Virus record (IMG/VR): IMGVR_UViG_3300021963_000541
Coordinates: 1 to 27,222 of that record
Length of the DNA stretch: 27,222 nt
Direction: 5' to 3' (one strand)
Origin: a virus
Under the pieces are notes generated by a model, which worked only from the letters and a program-made list of their open reading frames with translations, was not told the origin of the DNA and searched no databases. The first letter of the stretch is position 1. The number at the start of each line of letters is the position of its first letter. Both the position numbers and the translations under genes were made by a program. This document shows, piece after piece, positions 4,579 to 12,272 of the stretch.

Positions 4579-4607
4579 TTGACTTAATTACGGAATATTA
4601 CTATAAT
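4579..4607 (+). promoter_or_regulatory. Early promoter
   Basis: TTGACT, 17-bp spacer TAATTACGGAATATTAC, TATAAT (4602-4607), then the leader ACATCAACAGGAGAAAA. It drives the AAA+ ATPase gene. Confidence 0.9.
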
Positions 4608-4634: not shown

Positions 4635-5519
4635 ATGCATCAGCTCAAACAAGTCAACGGTTACTACGTTGGTTACATCAACGGGGAAGAAGTAGTGAAG
4701 TCCAAGTCTAAGTACTACGCCGAGAGAAAGCTTTATAACACCTCGGTTCCGGCTTTCAAGGCACCGGAGACTGTTGTCGAATCTGCAGTCGAGTTCCCCA
4801 TCAACCAACGTTTTGGCTTTGTGACCGATCTGGTCTCTATGGTGGCCCATGGTGCAACCCCATCATGCATCGTATCTGGGGAAGGCGGCCTGGGCAAGAC
4901 CTTCACCGTGATCCAGGCTTTGGAGGCCGCCGGCCTTCGGAACATCACCGAGGTGCCCGTTGGTGAGGTGGTGCCTCCGAAGTCGACCTACCGGGTTGTT
5001 AAGGGCTACAGTACTCCTAAAGGTCTGTATCGTATTTTGGCTGAAAACGCCAATTCAATCATCGTGTTCGACGATTGTGATAGCGTACTGAAGGATGATA
5101 ATGCTCTGAACATCTTGAAAGGTGCATTGGATACCTTTGATAAACGCATCATCTCCTGGAACTCATCCAAGGACGAGGACGATGTGCCCCGTTGGTTTCA
5201 GTTCAAAGGTGGCATCATCTTCATCTCCAACATGCCTTTGCATAAAATGGAACAGGCCGTTCGGTCACGCGCAATGTGTGTTGATCTCTCCATGACCCTG
5301 TCCCAGAAGATCGAACGCATGGCCGTTATCATGAACGATGATGGGTTTATGCCTGAGGTATCGATGGCGGTGAAGAAGGCGGCATTGGCCTTGGTTGATG
5401 AACTGAAGGAAAAGTCTAAAGAAGTTAGCCTTCGTACCCTGATCAAGACGGCAAAGATTGCCAATTCCAAGTCTGCCAACTGGAAATCATTGGCCGAGTA
5501 CATGCTGATTCAGGGTTAA
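4635..5519 (+). CDS. AAA+ family ATPase
   Basis: A 294-aa P-loop ATPase. Walker A GEGGLGKT is at residues 82-89, Walker B IIVFDDCD at 142-149, a sensor-1-like ISNM at 197-200 and likely arginine fingers in VRSRAM (R210/R212). The C-terminal helical part (residues 220-294) would be the lid domain. The N-terminal 55 residues (HQLKQVNGYYVGYINGEE) look like a small beta domain. It has its own strong early promoter and an AGGAGA site. Early expression suggests action on DNA or in host takeover. The ATPase class is clear; the substrate is unknown. Confidence 0.85.
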   Translation: MHQLKQVNGYYVGYINGEEVVKSKSKYYAERKLYNTSVPAFKAPETVVESAVEFPINQRFGFVTDLVSMVAHGATPSCIVSGEGGLGKTFTVIQALEAAGLRNITEVPVGEVVPPKSTYRVVKGYSTPKGLYRILAENANSIIVFDDCDSVLKDDNALNILKGALDTFDKRIISWNSSKDEDDVPRWFQFKGGIIFISNMPLHKMEQAVRSRAMCVDLSMTLSQKIERMAVIMNDDGFMPEVSMAVKKAALALVDELKEKSKEVSLRTLIKTAKIANSKSANWKSLAEYMLIQG

Positions 5520-6955: not shown

Positions 6956-6984
6956 TACGTATGAACAATGAAAAGGAACAGACC

Positions 6985-7383
6985 ATGAACTACTACTTCA
7001 ACGACGTCAAGGTGACTGAGGCTGAATATCACAAGTTGATTGAGGATGCTGAATCCCATCACGAACTGTTGGCTGCAGCCAAGGCCAAGCAGGCCGCTAT
7101 TGACAAGGAATTGGAAAAGGCCAAGCCTAAGGCTAAGTCCCGTAAGGTGGCTAAGATGCCGGCCCCAGTAGTAGACCTGAACGAGGTGACCATCAAAGGC
7201 ATGGCCGATAAGGTGGCAGCACCTAAGAAAGGATCCAAGACCGCCGTTGCTGCCGAATGCATGGTGAAGGTTGGTGTGGAAAACAAGGTCGGATGCATTG
7301 AGGCTATCATGGTGGCCTTGGGTGTTACTAAGGGTAACGCAACCTGCTACTACTTCAACGTGATGAAAAAAGGGTTGATTTAA
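6985..7383 (+). CDS. Small Lys/Ala-rich protein with winged-helix-like C-terminus
   Basis: 132 aa if started at ATG 6985, which has the site AAAGGA; the in-frame ATG at 6961 would add eight residues but sits at the transcript 5' end. Residues 1-50 are helical (EAEYHKLIEDAESHHELLAA), 50-75 are a Lys/Ala/Pro linker, and the C-terminus (KTAVAAECMVKVGV, CIEAIMVALGVTKGNATCYYFNVMKK) has the pattern of a compact DNA-binding module seen at the ends of many phage early proteins. A role as a phage DNA-binding regulator is inference. The promoter of the next transcript overlaps its last codons. Confidence 0.65.
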   Translation: MNYYFNDVKVTEAEYHKLIEDAESHHELLAAAKAKQAAIDKELEKAKPKAKSRKVAKMPAPVVDLNEVTIKGMADKVAAPKKGSKTAVAAECMVKVGVENKVGCIEAIMVALGVTKGNATCYYFNVMKKGLI

Positions 7384-7403
7384 ATAACAGGATGGCCTAT
7401 AAT
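7375..7403 (+). promoter_or_regulatory. Promoter of the 7.4-7.8 kb non-coding stretch
   Basis: TTGATT (7375-7380) overlaps the end of the preceding gene and lies exactly 17 bp from a perfect TATAAT (7398-7403). Transcription would begin near 7410. Confidence 0.75.
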
Positions 7404-7409
7404 TGACTT

Positions 7410-7790
7410 ATGTTCAACGGTTGTTAGTGACGATACGATAATAGGAACTAACTGGAATTCGGTTGCTCCAAAACGCAAGGCAAGACGCATTAACTAGATC
7501 CAAAGGATCAGCCCGGTAGAGGGTGTGCATGTCAAAAAGCCAAGCCTGGAGCATTAAATGGGCGAATGCCCAGCCAATCGATCCCGTTACTACTTTGCGT
7601 TAAAGTGGCGTTTGATTAACGATAGAGATCCGGTGGCAGAAAACCGTAAGCGTAAGGATGGAGACTACCCTTGCAGACTCTGATAGGCAGAATCCTAACT
7701 GCACACAGACACAGAATAAAATGGATGGACAGGGTAACCACTCATGTAGGGGCGATTGTGGAAGACGTAGCCTACAACTATCAAAGGACA
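7410..7790 (+). ncRNA. Candidate structured RNA of unknown class
   Basis: About 380 bases with a strong promoter but no ORF that combines a ribosome site and plausible composition. Many complementary segments are visible: GTTAGT 7423-7428 / ACTAAC 7447-7452; TGCTCC 7464-7469 / GGAGCA 7548-7553; GATCC 7497-7501 / GGATC 7505-7509 around AAA; TGGGC 7559-7563 / GCCCA 7568-7572 around GAAT; ACTTT / AAAGT around GCGTT near 7595; and a long-range AACGCAAGG / CTTTGCGTT pairing that would compete with the last hairpin. It could be a phage regulatory RNA or simply the leader of the gene at 7793. It matches no RNA family I can name. Confidence 0.4.
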
Positions 7791-7792
7791 TC

Positions 7793-7948
7793 ATGCAGCA
7801 CATCATTGATTGGATCTTTCGTATTCTTGGATGGATTTTCATGTCCGCCACCTTCTTTGGACTCCTTATCCTCCTCATCGTGCTTGCTGGCATGACGTAC
7901 GGCGGATATGTGGAATTCATGAAGTACTTAAAACTAGTTACTTCTTAA
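7793..7948 (+). CDS. Small membrane protein
   Basis: 51 aa from ATG 7793, chosen because AAAGGA lies upstream and the hydrophobic part begins here; an in-frame ATG at 7658 would add 45 low-complexity polar residues and has no site. The protein is one long hydrophobic segment (IFRILGWIFMSATFFGLLILLIVLAGM) with a short cytoplasmic-like tail. It is unrecognised. Its stop lies in the palindrome at 7940-7953. Confidence 0.55.
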   Translation: MQHIIDWIFRILGWIFMSATFFGLLILLIVLAGMTYGGYVEFMKYLKLVTS

Positions 7949-9401: not shown

Positions 9402-9781
9402 AACTCGTCATCGAAACCCAGTATGCAGAAAACTACGGTGCCCATGATTGGAATGGTGTTGGGGAGTGCCCCCAGTATTGGAAGATGAAGGGTGGTTATA
9501 CCTACGTGATTGAGAACGTCGAGAATTATATCAAAGGTGGGGAATTCTTTGATAGGAGATGTGAAATGATCGTCGACGGTCTCCGTCTTAAACTTGAAAC
9601 CTCCACCGAATATATGCGTGAATACATTATCGGCTGGAACGTCAGGCCTGACGATTGGATGTCCGAATTTGAGAAAGACCAGTTGGAGTACGCCGGGGTC
9701 ATCGACGCCCCCGACCACCGCATTGATTTGGAAGGCAGGAGGGTGTACAACTTTGATTCGAAAGGTAGGGTGGTGAGATGA
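9398..9781 (+). CDS. Conserved phage hypothetical protein
   Basis: 127 aa. The N-terminus (IETQYAENYGAHDWNGVGEC, PQYWKMKGGYTYVIENV) matches a family that I recognise from many phage genomes but whose function is unknown. The rest is mixed alpha-beta with several Trp residues. AAAGGT lies upstream of ATG 9398. It heads the coupled run that continues into the small-gene array through ATGA at 9778. Confidence 0.7.
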   Translation: MKLVIETQYAENYGAHDWNGVGECPQYWKMKGGYTYVIENVENYIKGGEFFDRRCEMIVDGLRLKLETSTEYMREYIIGWNVRPDDWMSEFEKDQLEYAGVIDAPDHRIDLEGRRVYNFDSKGRVVR

Positions 9782-9999
9782 ACAAACGAATTCAAGCACT
9801 TGCTAAAGAGGCTGGCTTTATTGATAGAGGCTCTAATCATACTGCTTATATGAATTTTGACCACGAAAAGTTTGCCGAGTTGATTGTTAGGGAATGTATG
9901 GAAGTTGCCCACCCAAGACTAACCGATGTAGGTGAGTGGGCTGCCGGTATGCGTCTGGTGCAAAAGCGATTGGAACAACATTTCGGAGTTGAAGAATGA
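9778..9999 (+). CDS. MNERI-family protein, copy 1
   Basis: 73 aa. This is the first of eight paralogues sharing a three-part plan: N-terminal helix MN(E/K)RIxxLAxxAG, central core (K)FAELIVRECxxV, and C-terminal helix ending (K/E)HFGVEE. The spacer between the helix and the core is variable. The proteins are small, soluble and helical, with no catalytic residues visible. Such genes recur in phage genomes of several types, with no known role. The site GGTAGGGTGG precedes the ATG, which overlaps the previous stop. Confidence 0.75.
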   Translation: MNKRIQALAKEAGFIDRGSNHTAYMNFDHEKFAELIVRECMEVAHPRLTDVGEWAAGMRLVQKRLEQHFGVEE

Positions 10000-10169
10000 A
10001 CGGCCACGAAGAAGCAGATTATCGCAGAGCAATTATTTTTGCATTTGGTGATAATCCAAAAAAGCTAAAGAAGGCTCTCAAGGTACTTCAAAAGATGATT
10101 CCAGAAATGGAAGAAGAATACGAGGAACGGATGGCAGATTATTACATGGGGCGGGGACCACATCCATGA
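9996..10169 (+). CDS. Hypothetical charged protein
   Basis: 57 aa from ATG 9996 to 10169, coupled by ATGA on both sides. It is helical and charged (NPKKLKKALKVLQKMIPEME) and is not a member of the repeated family. It is inserted between copies 1 and 2. Confidence 0.6.
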   Translation: MNGHEEADYRRAIIFAFGDNPKKLKKALKVLQKMIPEMEEEYEERMADYYMGRGPHP

Positions 10170-10375
10170 ACGAACGAATTAAAGAATTGGCTGAACAGGC
10201 TGGTATTGATGAATGGTGGGATAGCGGCAGTGAACGCCGTGAAGGCCTACAGGAGCATCTGGAAAAGTTAGCCGAGTTGATTGTGCGAAAATGCGCTGAC
10301 ATTGGTCGACAATATGCTGATGGCAACTATGAAGTTCCTAATCAGATTTTAGAATATTTTGGGATGGAAGAATGA
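10166..10375 (+). CDS. MNERI-family protein, copy 2
   Basis: 69 aa. It has the family core as KLAELIVRKCADI and the end as EYFGMEE, with a variable Trp/Arg-rich spacer (DEWWDSGSERREGLQEH). It is coupled to its neighbours by ATGA. Confidence 0.75.
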   Translation: MNERIKELAEQAGIDEWWDSGSERREGLQEHLEKLAELIVRKCADIGRQYADGNYEVPNQILEYFGMEE

Positions 10376-10590
10376 ACGAACGAATTAAAAAACTTTATGA
10401 ACAGTCATTTGTAACCGATGATTATGTAAATGTTGGAATTAACGGTGTTGAGTTGGGTATTAAATTTGACCCTGAAAAGTTCGCCGAGTTGATTGTTCGA
10501 GAATGTGCTGAAGTTGGTTCTAAATTCAGTCAAGCACATCCTTTAGATATTCAATATCAAATTAAAAGGCATTTCGGAGTTGAAGAATGA
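10372..10590 (+). CDS. MNERI-family protein, copy 3
   Basis: 72 aa. The core is KFAELIVRECAEV and the end HFGVEE. The first repeat deviates (KLYEQSFVTDD). The stretch from the core to the end is close to copies 1 and 4 at the nucleotide level, for example GCCGAGTTGATTGTTCGAGA. Confidence 0.75.
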   Translation: MNERIKKLYEQSFVTDDYVNVGINGVELGIKFDPEKFAELIVRECAEVGSKFSQAHPLDIQYQIKRHFGVEE

Positions 10591-10787
10591 ACGAGAAAAT
10601 TAAACAACTTGCCGAACAGGCTGGATACTTACCGGATATGTTTGGCATTGGACACTGGGATATGCCAGAATGTCAAAAGTTCGCCGAGTTGATTGTTCGA
10701 GAATGTGCTAAAAGGGTAGATTACTGGGAATCAAGACAAGGTGAACATGCTGATGATTTACTAAAACATTTCGGAGTTGAAGAATGA
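10587..10787 (+). CDS. MNERI-family protein, copy 4
   Basis: 66 aa, with core KFAELIVRECAK and end KHFGVEE. The variable spacer here is short (YLPDMFGIGHWDMPEC). ATGA coupling on both sides. Confidence 0.75.
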   Translation: MNEKIKQLAEQAGYLPDMFGIGHWDMPECQKFAELIVRECAKRVDYWESRQGEHADDLLKHFGVEE

Positions 10788-10984
10788 ATGAACGAACTAA
10801 ACAACTTTGGGAAGAGGCTGCTAAAAAAACTCAGGGTGATTCTTGGGAAGAGCAGACAAAGTTCATAGAAAGGTTCGCCGAGTTGATTGTTAGGGAATGT
10901 ATCAGCAATGTTGAAGTATGGGAAAAGGATAGTCGTAATCATATATCATATATGCTGAAACAACAGTTCGGAGTTAAAGAATGA
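10784..10984 (+). CDS. MNERI-family protein, copy 5
   Basis: 66 aa, with core RFAELIVRECIS and end QQFGVKE. A tandem ATGAATGA at the start gives two possible starts (10784 or 10788 in another frame); 10784 is in frame. Confidence 0.72.
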   Translation: MNERTKQLWEEAAKKTQGDSWEEQTKFIERFAELIVRECISNVEVWEKDSRNHISYMLKQQFGVKE

Positions 10985-11154
10985 ACACACTAATGAAAAT
11001 TCTACACAAGATACCGTTTGTGCATTTTTATAGTAAATGGTCTGACCCGGTTGGTCGTGATTACGCCGGATGCGAACGCCAACAAAGATTCTGTATTATC
11101 TGCAATAAGAAACAATACCGTACCGTAAATAATTCTGATATTGTTAGTTTATGA
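10981..11154 (+). CDS. Small protein with cysteine knuckle
   Basis: 57 aa from ATG 10981, coupled by ATGA on both sides. It contains C-x6-C-x2-C (CERQQRFCIICNKKQYR), which could bind zinc together with nearby His residues. It breaks the array between copies 5 and 6 and is unrecognised. Confidence 0.6.
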   Translation: MNTLMKILHKIPFVHFYSKWSDPVGRDYAGCERQQRFCIICNKKQYRTVNNSDIVSL

Positions 11155-11342
11155 ACGAACGAATTCAAGAACTTTGGGTGCAGGCTGTACATGGTGACGG
11201 ACCTCATGCATCAGTGATTGCAGATTTCGCCGAGTTGATTATTAAGGAATGTGGTGTGGCATTGAGTCCTATGTTGCGTGATATGGTTAGTCGTGGACAA
11301 GCATATGATTTGATTAAACAACATTTTGGAGTTGAAGAATGA
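11151..11342 (+). CDS. MNERI-family protein, copy 6
   Basis: 63 aa, the shortest copy, with core DFAELIIKECGV and end QHFGVEE. The spacer between helix and core is reduced to about 10 residues. Confidence 0.72.
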   Translation: MNERIQELWVQAVHGDGPHASVIADFAELIIKECGVALSPMLRDMVSRGQAYDLIKQHFGVEE

Positions 11343-11560
11343 ACGAACGAATTAAAGAAATGGCTAAATTAGCGCAATTGCGGGCTGAGTGGATGACACC
11401 TCAGGGATTAGAGTGGTTTGATAACTTCAAAGAACAATTCGCCGAGTTGATTGTGAAGGAATGTTTAGGTATAATTGAAAATGAAGCATCTACCTATGCC
11501 GAACCTGTATGGGCCGTTGAATTAGTTAACGATATTAAAGAACGTTTTGGTGTTAAATGA
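11339..11560 (+). CDS. MNERI-family protein, copy 7
   Basis: 73 aa, with core QFAELIVKECLGI and the end shortened to RFGVK. Its stop overlaps the next small gene. Confidence 0.72.
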   Translation: MNERIKEMAKLAQLRAEWMTPQGLEWFDNFKEQFAELIVKECLGIIENEASTYAEPVWAVELVNDIKERFGVK

Positions 11561-11667
11561 TGACAAATATTGAGAGACGATTAATGTGGGAAGGTATCTT
11601 TGCAATTGGTAAAGGTTTAGCGTACTTCCTGTTCATGGCTGCTATGATAAAATATTTGTGGAGTTGA
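11557..11667 (+). CDS. Very small membrane protein
   Basis: 36 aa starting at ATG 11557 (ATGATGA coupling). One hydrophobic helix (WEGIFAIGKGLAYFLFMAAM) with a basic N-terminus. It is unrecognised. Confidence 0.5.
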   Translation: MMTNIERRLMWEGIFAIGKGLAYFLFMAAMIKYLWS

Positions 11668-11670
11668 ATA

Positions 11671-11856
11671 ATGAATTATGAAGATGATGATCACGGTAGC
11701 GATATGTCTGACGAAGAATACCGTCGTCGAATAGCTAGAGAAAAAGAGAGTGAAGAATTCTATGCCAATGCTCGCAAGACATGGAAGCCATCTAACAATG
11801 ATAAAAGCTCTTATCGTTTTAGTAGCGACGATGACGACGCGTATCTATCTTATTGA
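11671..11856 (+). CDS. Acidic low-complexity protein
   Basis: 61 aa, with Asp/Glu-rich ends (YEDDDHGSDMSDEEYRRR and SSDDDDAYLSY) and a charged helix between. GGAG lies 7 bases upstream of ATG 11671. It is probably disordered. A DNA-mimic or host-factor inhibitor is conceivable, but nothing in the sequence proves it. Confidence 0.55.
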   Translation: MNYEDDDHGSDMSDEEYRRRIAREKESEEFYANARKTWKPSNNDKSSYRFSSDDDDAYLSY

Positions 11857-11868
11857 AGGAGTTAAATT

Positions 11869-12054
11869 ATGAAAGTTGCATGGCCTATTTTTCTGTTGTT
11901 GATTGTTGTGGGCCTACTGGTCCCATTTGCATTCCTTTGGGCACTCAACACCCTGTTCCCCGTTCTAGAATTGGAGTACAGCTTTGTTAACTATCTGGCT
12001 GTCTGCCTTATCCATGCCTTCTTTCGTTCAGATGTGTTTAGTATCAAGAAATGA
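11869..12054 (+). CDS. Membrane protein
   Basis: 61 aa with two hydrophobic segments (WPIFLLLIVVGLLVPFAFLW and VNYLAVCLIHAFF). AAGGAG lies 8 bases upstream. Its end overlaps copy 8 of the repeated family (ATGA). Confidence 0.6.
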   Translation: MKVAWPIFLLLIVVGLLVPFAFLWALNTLFPVLELEYSFVNYLAVCLIHAFFRSDVFSIKK

Positions 12055-12272
12055 ACAAGCAAATTAAACTGTTTGCTGAACAAGCCGGCTTTGTGATGTG
12101 GGAAGATGAACCGTGGAATCCCGGTGACGTCATTGACTGGAGTACACGTTATGATACTGAACTGGAAAAGTTTGCTAACATTATCATCTTCGAATGTTTC
12201 AAGCTGGCAGTATTCAATAGTAATCACGCAACAGCAAAAGCAATCAAAGAACATTTTGGAGTTGGAGAATGA
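12051..12272 (+). CDS. MNERI-family protein, copy 8 (divergent)
   Basis: 73 aa, with N-terminus MNKQIKLFAEQAGF, core KFANIIIFECFKL and end EHFGVGE. It is the most diverged copy and is separated from the others by three unrelated genes. Copy 1 also has the Lys at position 3. Confidence 0.7.
   Translation: MNKQIKLFAEQAGFVMWEDEPWNPGDVIDWSTRYDTELEKFANIIIFECFKLAVFNSNHATAKAIKEHFGVGE

Follow-up and report, generated by a model that had tools for sequence, protein, structure and literature searches.

Structured RNAs of phage tRNA islands

Two phage RNAs of unknown function, GOLLD and ROOL, lie near tRNA islands (PMC12286853). GOLLD rises during lysis, pull-downs reported ribosomes binding it, and its 3′ part is conserved and its 5′ part variable, with a length above 800 nt in many members; ROOL occurs in phages and prophages and has pseudoknots (PMC12286853). 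The tRNA cluster of phage T4 holds two smaller stable RNAs on the same strand, rnaC and rnaD (species 1 and 2; 139 and 119 nt). The RNA described here as RNA A lengthens this short list of structured RNAs kept among phage tRNAs: the niche, that of a phage tRNA-island RNA of unknown function, was already known, and the family is apparently new.

RNA A is comparable to GOLLD and ROOL in niche and is not homologous to them. Like GOLLD (RF02032), it is a structured phage RNA of tRNA islands (tRNA genes are present at 133 of 139 RNA A loci, all on the RNA A strand and none on the opposite strand), but it is about 200 nt long rather than more than 800, the models of the two do not match each other, and RNA A members gave no GOLLD match in Rfam scans at E ≤ 5-10. 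ROOL (RF03087) resembles RNA A in its pseudoknots and tRNA-island neighbourhood, but its model has 574 positions (approximately 580 nt) and cmscan found no ROOL match among RNA A members; none of 12 phages carrying RNA A yielded a ROOL, a weak test of absence because the tool's controls also gave no signal. The 286-kb phage G006 carries a true GOLLD (L057 / G006:C1:141221-141685, 204 bits) as a separate locus 2.4 kb from RNA A; a tRNA lies inside this GOLLD. By analogy with GOLLD and ROOL, RNA A might be a scaffold that forms RNA-only oligomers or cages, as the common niche (PMC12286853) and the nearby GOLLD of G006 would suggest, but RNA A is far shorter than either and has no model similarity to them, and such a role is considered unlikely. 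T4 rnaC and rnaD resemble RNA A in location, but the 3′ end of rnaC looks tRNA-like and that of RNA A does not; the RNA A model finds nothing in T4, and the two were rejected as homologues. Neither a tRNA nor a tmRNA was detected in the window by ARAGORN or Rfam, and group I and II introns were sought in Rfam without a match, the tRNAs that flank RNA A being complete.

The source phage and the stretch without a gene

The window, meaning the whole stretch of DNA that was analysed, corresponds to one complete IMG/VR record (27,222 bases) from a T4-like phage with genes for a family B DNA polymerase, UvsX, dCMP deaminase and Hsp20; among cultured phages, Methylophilales phage Melnitz (Kyanoviridae) has the closest UvsX, with 60% identity. 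Near-identical promoters (TTGACT-17-TATAAT) occur in series at positions 4579, 5566, 5767, 6152, 6927 and 7984, several of them preceding a common ribosome-binding leader (ATCAACAGGAGAA), and some ten small paralogous genes in succession, whose products start MNERIK...FAELIVRECAEV...HFGVEE, occupy positions 9778-12272.

An earlier note, made from the letters of the window, had placed a strong promoter at the end of a gene, followed by about 380 nt without a credible ORF that it took for a possible non-coding RNA. The promoter is present, with its −35 hexamer at 7375-7380 and its −10 hexamer at 7398-7403, and this region is conserved in the two nearest relatives of the window (contigs L002 and L003). 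The absence of a credible ORF was borne out: the frame that begins with the ATG at 7658 has an in-frame stop in 63 of 72 aligned sequences, its length modulo 3 is kept in 31, and only six sequences combine a kept length with an open frame, so that the coding signature that would have told against the proposal of the earlier note does not appear in this frame across the 72 homologues. In favour of a coding region, the window has no stop in this frame before 7948, but the stops elsewhere and the strong covariation described below have already refuted both this reading and that of an ordinary intergenic spacer, to which next to no probability is given. The stretch stands as non-coding, but not as a single RNA of about 380 nt: no fewer than two conserved RNAs, RNA B and RNA A, lie in it together with a short conserved motif (Table 1). 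The 51-aa ORF that follows had no match in a PHROG search.

Table 1. Features of the window around RNA A
Feature	Position	Strand	Remarks
Upstream ORF	6961-7383		140 aa; 3′ end overlapped by the promoter
Promoter TTGATT-17-TATAAT	7375-7403	+	Overlaps the end of the upstream ORF
RNA C, short conserved motif	7414-7452	+	CAACGGTTGTNAGTGACGAT ... GGAACT; also present in three other phages, in their tRNA arrays
RNA B, second conserved structured RNA	7461-7576	+	About 115 nt; compensatory changes
RNA A core, conserved pseudoknotted RNA	7579-7782	+	About 200 nt; model match 7578-7782, 195.9 bits, the window itself being among the sequences used to build the model
P0, 5′ strand UCC	7582-7584	+	Pairs with GGA 7727-7729
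Tertiary/pseudoknot contact	7585-7599	+	Two pairs that join 7585-7586 of the 5′ strand to P1-loop bases 7598-7599
P1 hairpin (ACTTT/AAAGT)	7590-7608	+	Covarying
P1b, GAU/AUC	7614-7630	+	Covarying: UA 51, AU 9, CG 9
P2, CGGU/ACCG	7631-7646	+	Loop GGCAGAAA; stem invariant
P3 hairpin	7652-7674	+	Length variable; strong covariation
P4/P5 hairpin	7679-7709	+	Stems nearly invariant; loop 7691-7698 joins the pseudoknot
Pseudoknot PK	7692-7726	+	P5 loop AUCC with GGAU 7723-7726; compensatory changes
P6	7731-7742	+	Loop GUAACN; closing A.G/G.A pair
P7/P7a 3′ hairpin	7747-7774	+	Conserved GGGC / GUAGC internal loop
Downstream ORF	7793-7948	+	51 aa, hydrophobic; possibly co-transcribed

Homologues of RNA A

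With the upstream gene as bait, L002 (a contig of 164 kb) and L003 were found, and their alignment showed high conservation over two thirds of the stretch, on its 3′ side, and differences in the 5′ part. An 18-mer of the conserved part matched 25 viral contigs, every one of which has the entire element with compensatory differences, and two further patterns raised the total to at least about 135 other IMG/VR phage contigs with RNA A; four matches of one pattern scan (L039, L049, L101, L104) were rejected as chance. Among phage records of 115-525 kb, 19 of 20 have one good copy of RNA A and one has two, the exceptions having a divergent copy.

Beyond these contigs, Rfam 15 gave no credible match to several members at gathering or at permissive thresholds (E ≤ 5-10), in keeping with the earlier remark that the stretch fits no recognised class. 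Several RNA A queries compared by blastn with 50,697 named phages returned only chance words or tRNA matches, a plasmid search returned none, and one specific pattern run against 84,980 prokaryote genomes had no real match, the sole hit being a chance one within a GC-rich coding gene. RNA A was not found in nine cultured phages, and thus there is no laboratory host so far. The open-access literature yielded no earlier description; subscription journals, preprints or supplements may hold one. These searches show RNA A to be phage-restricted as far as they extended, and it is apparently an undescribed RNA family without a known relative.

Conserved fold and covariation

A fold of 46 base pairs was drawn from RNAalifold and from column covariation in an alignment of 72 distinct sequences (alignment A2). 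Standard pairs fill 96.0% of its positions in the 72 homologues, as against 24-40% in slid controls, 34-40% being the figure for partners moved by 1-3 columns. Changes on both sides are seen in 19 pairs, with 247 compensated cells compared to 76 after shuffling, and they are located in P1, P1b, P3, P7, P7a and the long-range pseudoknot, in which the P5 loop pairs with the strand that precedes the 3′ side of P0. The contact between 7585-7586 and 7598-7599 is paired in all 72 sequences (variants C-G, G-C, A-U and U-G). A stricter, tree-aware null scattered substitutions randomly over the tree; when all 18,528 column pairs are tested against it, only three of the proposed pairs reach E < 0.05 and seven more fall below 0.7, and one other pair also falls below 0.05. 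Several helices are uninformative for covariation because they are invariant, P2, P4 and P5 being nearly so and supported by conservation only. The P6 helix of RNAalifold (columns 176-178/185-187) was replaced by columns 175-177/184-186, since columns 177 and 184 covary. The aligned homologues show a conserved, covarying fold that is predicted to be pseudoknotted; since this alignment also served to define part of the fold, independent sequences matter.

The folding energy of the stretch by itself is unexceptional (z = −1.06, 15 of 100 shuffles being equally good), and it is by covariation in homologues, not by energy, that the stretch exceeds chance. This covariation is the check on which the earlier note had let its proposal depend, and the ACTTT/AAAGT hairpin that it had pointed out is real, being the covarying helix P1. 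The evidence as a whole supports the stretch as phage non-coding RNA with its own predicted promoter.

RNA B and the RNA C motif

RNA B consists of two similar halves, each of which closes with a hairpin and AGCC. In L066 and L095 its homologues immediately precede RNA A, whereas in other arrays they occupy other positions; the RNA B model finds 11 loci, which are either immediately upstream of RNA A or in tRNA arrays. The helices of RNA B are 97.3% paired, with 18 compensated cells compared to 5.0 after shuffling, figures that come from only eight distinct sequences fitted to the model. The complementary segments of the earlier note do exist, and the pairing of AACGCAAGG with CTTTGCGTT, which it had set as a competitor against the P1 hairpin, does occur in the window. 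Switching between the two is not supported: the pairing would connect RNA B with RNA A, separate units that lie apart in other phages, and so is most likely coincidental; RNA B is not a switch partner of RNA A. The RNA C motif recurs after tRNA-Asp at L162:1204, at L207:3234 and, on the minus strand, in L096.

A divergent class 2

About 50 contigs carry a divergent form of RNA A, class 2, in which the middle domain is different and the 5′ CCCG strand, P1, the pseudoknot, P6 and P7 are in common with class 1. Examples are L134:3160-3285, L132:2350-2481, L162:2457-2666, L178:3754-3960 and L205:214-422. The class 1 model matches all 44 loci of the class 2 scan with E ≤ 1.3e-7. In the alignment of class 2 by itself (31 sequences, approximately 29,000 column pairs), the five highest-ranking pairs belong to P7/P7a, and the A.G/G.A swap of P6 is seen again, so that it occurs in both classes. 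Seven arrays (L157, L184, L185, L187, L190, L198 and L199) have two copies of differing class. In L132, just after the class 2 RNA and before tRNA-Gln, a perfect 17-bp stem (CTTAATTGTGTTATCTG) encloses about 85 nt (2478-2640); this element has no Rfam match.

Location among tRNA genes and promoters

The RNA A core starts no more than 4 nt from the end of the upstream tRNA in 80 of 139 loci; in 99 the next tRNA begins no more than about 15 nt beyond the core, and in 61 both sides are abutted; in G006 (L057) a tRNA, RNA A and tRNA-Asp follow in order with one base between. The tRNA before RNA A is Tyr, Glu or Cys, and the tRNA after it is mostly Asp(GTC) (81 loci) or Tyr(GTA) (22 loci), with Ala, Glu, Met and Cys also seen. 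Common descent explains this preference, and no functional conclusion is drawn from it.

In eleven distinct arrays RNA A is immediately preceded by a perfect consensus promoter (TTGACA-16/17-TATAAT), a score that none of 200 shuffles reached, and in ten of the eleven this promoter ends 17-18 nt before the core; the count leaves out L084, L116 and L141 as artefacts of elements at contig ends. In G001, the phage of L002 and the closest large relative of the window, RNA A is located at 154.6 kb and an array of 27 tRNA genes at 36-54 kb. Being about 100 kb from the array, RNA A is a unit of its own that resides mostly but not only in tRNA arrays.

If RNA A were a cis-acting leader or riboswitch, it would control the next gene downstream, and the window, L002 and L003 do share the same small ORF in that position. 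In most phages, however, the next gene is not an ORF but one of the tRNAs listed above, no class of downstream gene is constant, and the arrays with a promoter directly before RNA A resemble a gene unit; a leader is accordingly regarded as quite improbable.

Possible function

The consensus promoter, the tRNA-array niche and the survival of RNA A away from an array point to an autonomous, probably trans-acting RNA gene. With moderate confidence, RNA A is viewed as the transcript of an autonomous gene for a non-coding RNA, carried by large phages rich in tRNAs, and probably as a processed structural RNA that acts in trans. It would be transcribed from a promoter of the sigma-70 type or within a tRNA transcript, would be trimmed by tRNA-processing enzymes where it lies between tRNAs, and, at about 200 nt, would adopt a compact pseudoknotted fold; it may work in trans as a stable structural RNA, either alone or with a protein. 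The wide conservation says that RNA A matters to these phages.

Alternatively, RNA A might be a ribozyme that cleaves or splices itself or cuts other RNA, for instance freeing itself from adjoining tRNAs. The nested pseudoknot and the many invariant unpaired bases (GGCAGAAA, ACACAGA, GUAAC) are what a catalytic RNA might have, but Rfam scans at E ≤ 5-10 matched it to no ribozyme or intron, RNA A interrupts no gene, and in the window it is kept without an adjoining tRNA, all of which makes this rather unlikely.

For a structural RNA acting in trans, the target might be the translation apparatus, whether the ribosome, tRNAs or the host enzymes that destroy tRNAs in infection; this is a guess, held at distinctly less than even weight. 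Long antisense complementarity to rRNA was excluded, as the longest matches to E. coli 16S, 23S and 5S rRNA were 6-8 nt, below the shuffled means. On a bolder reading, likewise held at less than even weight, RNA A would be the founding example of a large superfamily of RNAs, made up of class 1, class 2 and intermediates and often present twice in an array, with a new RNA-based function in the takeover of translation, such as shielding or steering tRNAs or ribosomes against host defences that destroy tRNAs, possibly by catalysis. At about 200 nt RNA A is compact and suited to probing in vitro, it occurs in phage records of up to 525 kb, and it makes the purpose of non-tRNA RNAs in phage tRNA islands testable with a small molecule.

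Unusual tRNA-like sequences

Directly after RNA A in L002 (6942-7031) is a tRNA-like sequence with a 7-bp acceptor stem, a T arm, a CCA end and an odd anticodon arm, for which ARAGORN makes no call. In one phage array (L167), ARAGORN identifies tRNAs with the stop-codon anticodons CTA (5204-5278) and TTA (10349-10422), hinting at stop-codon suppression or reassignment.
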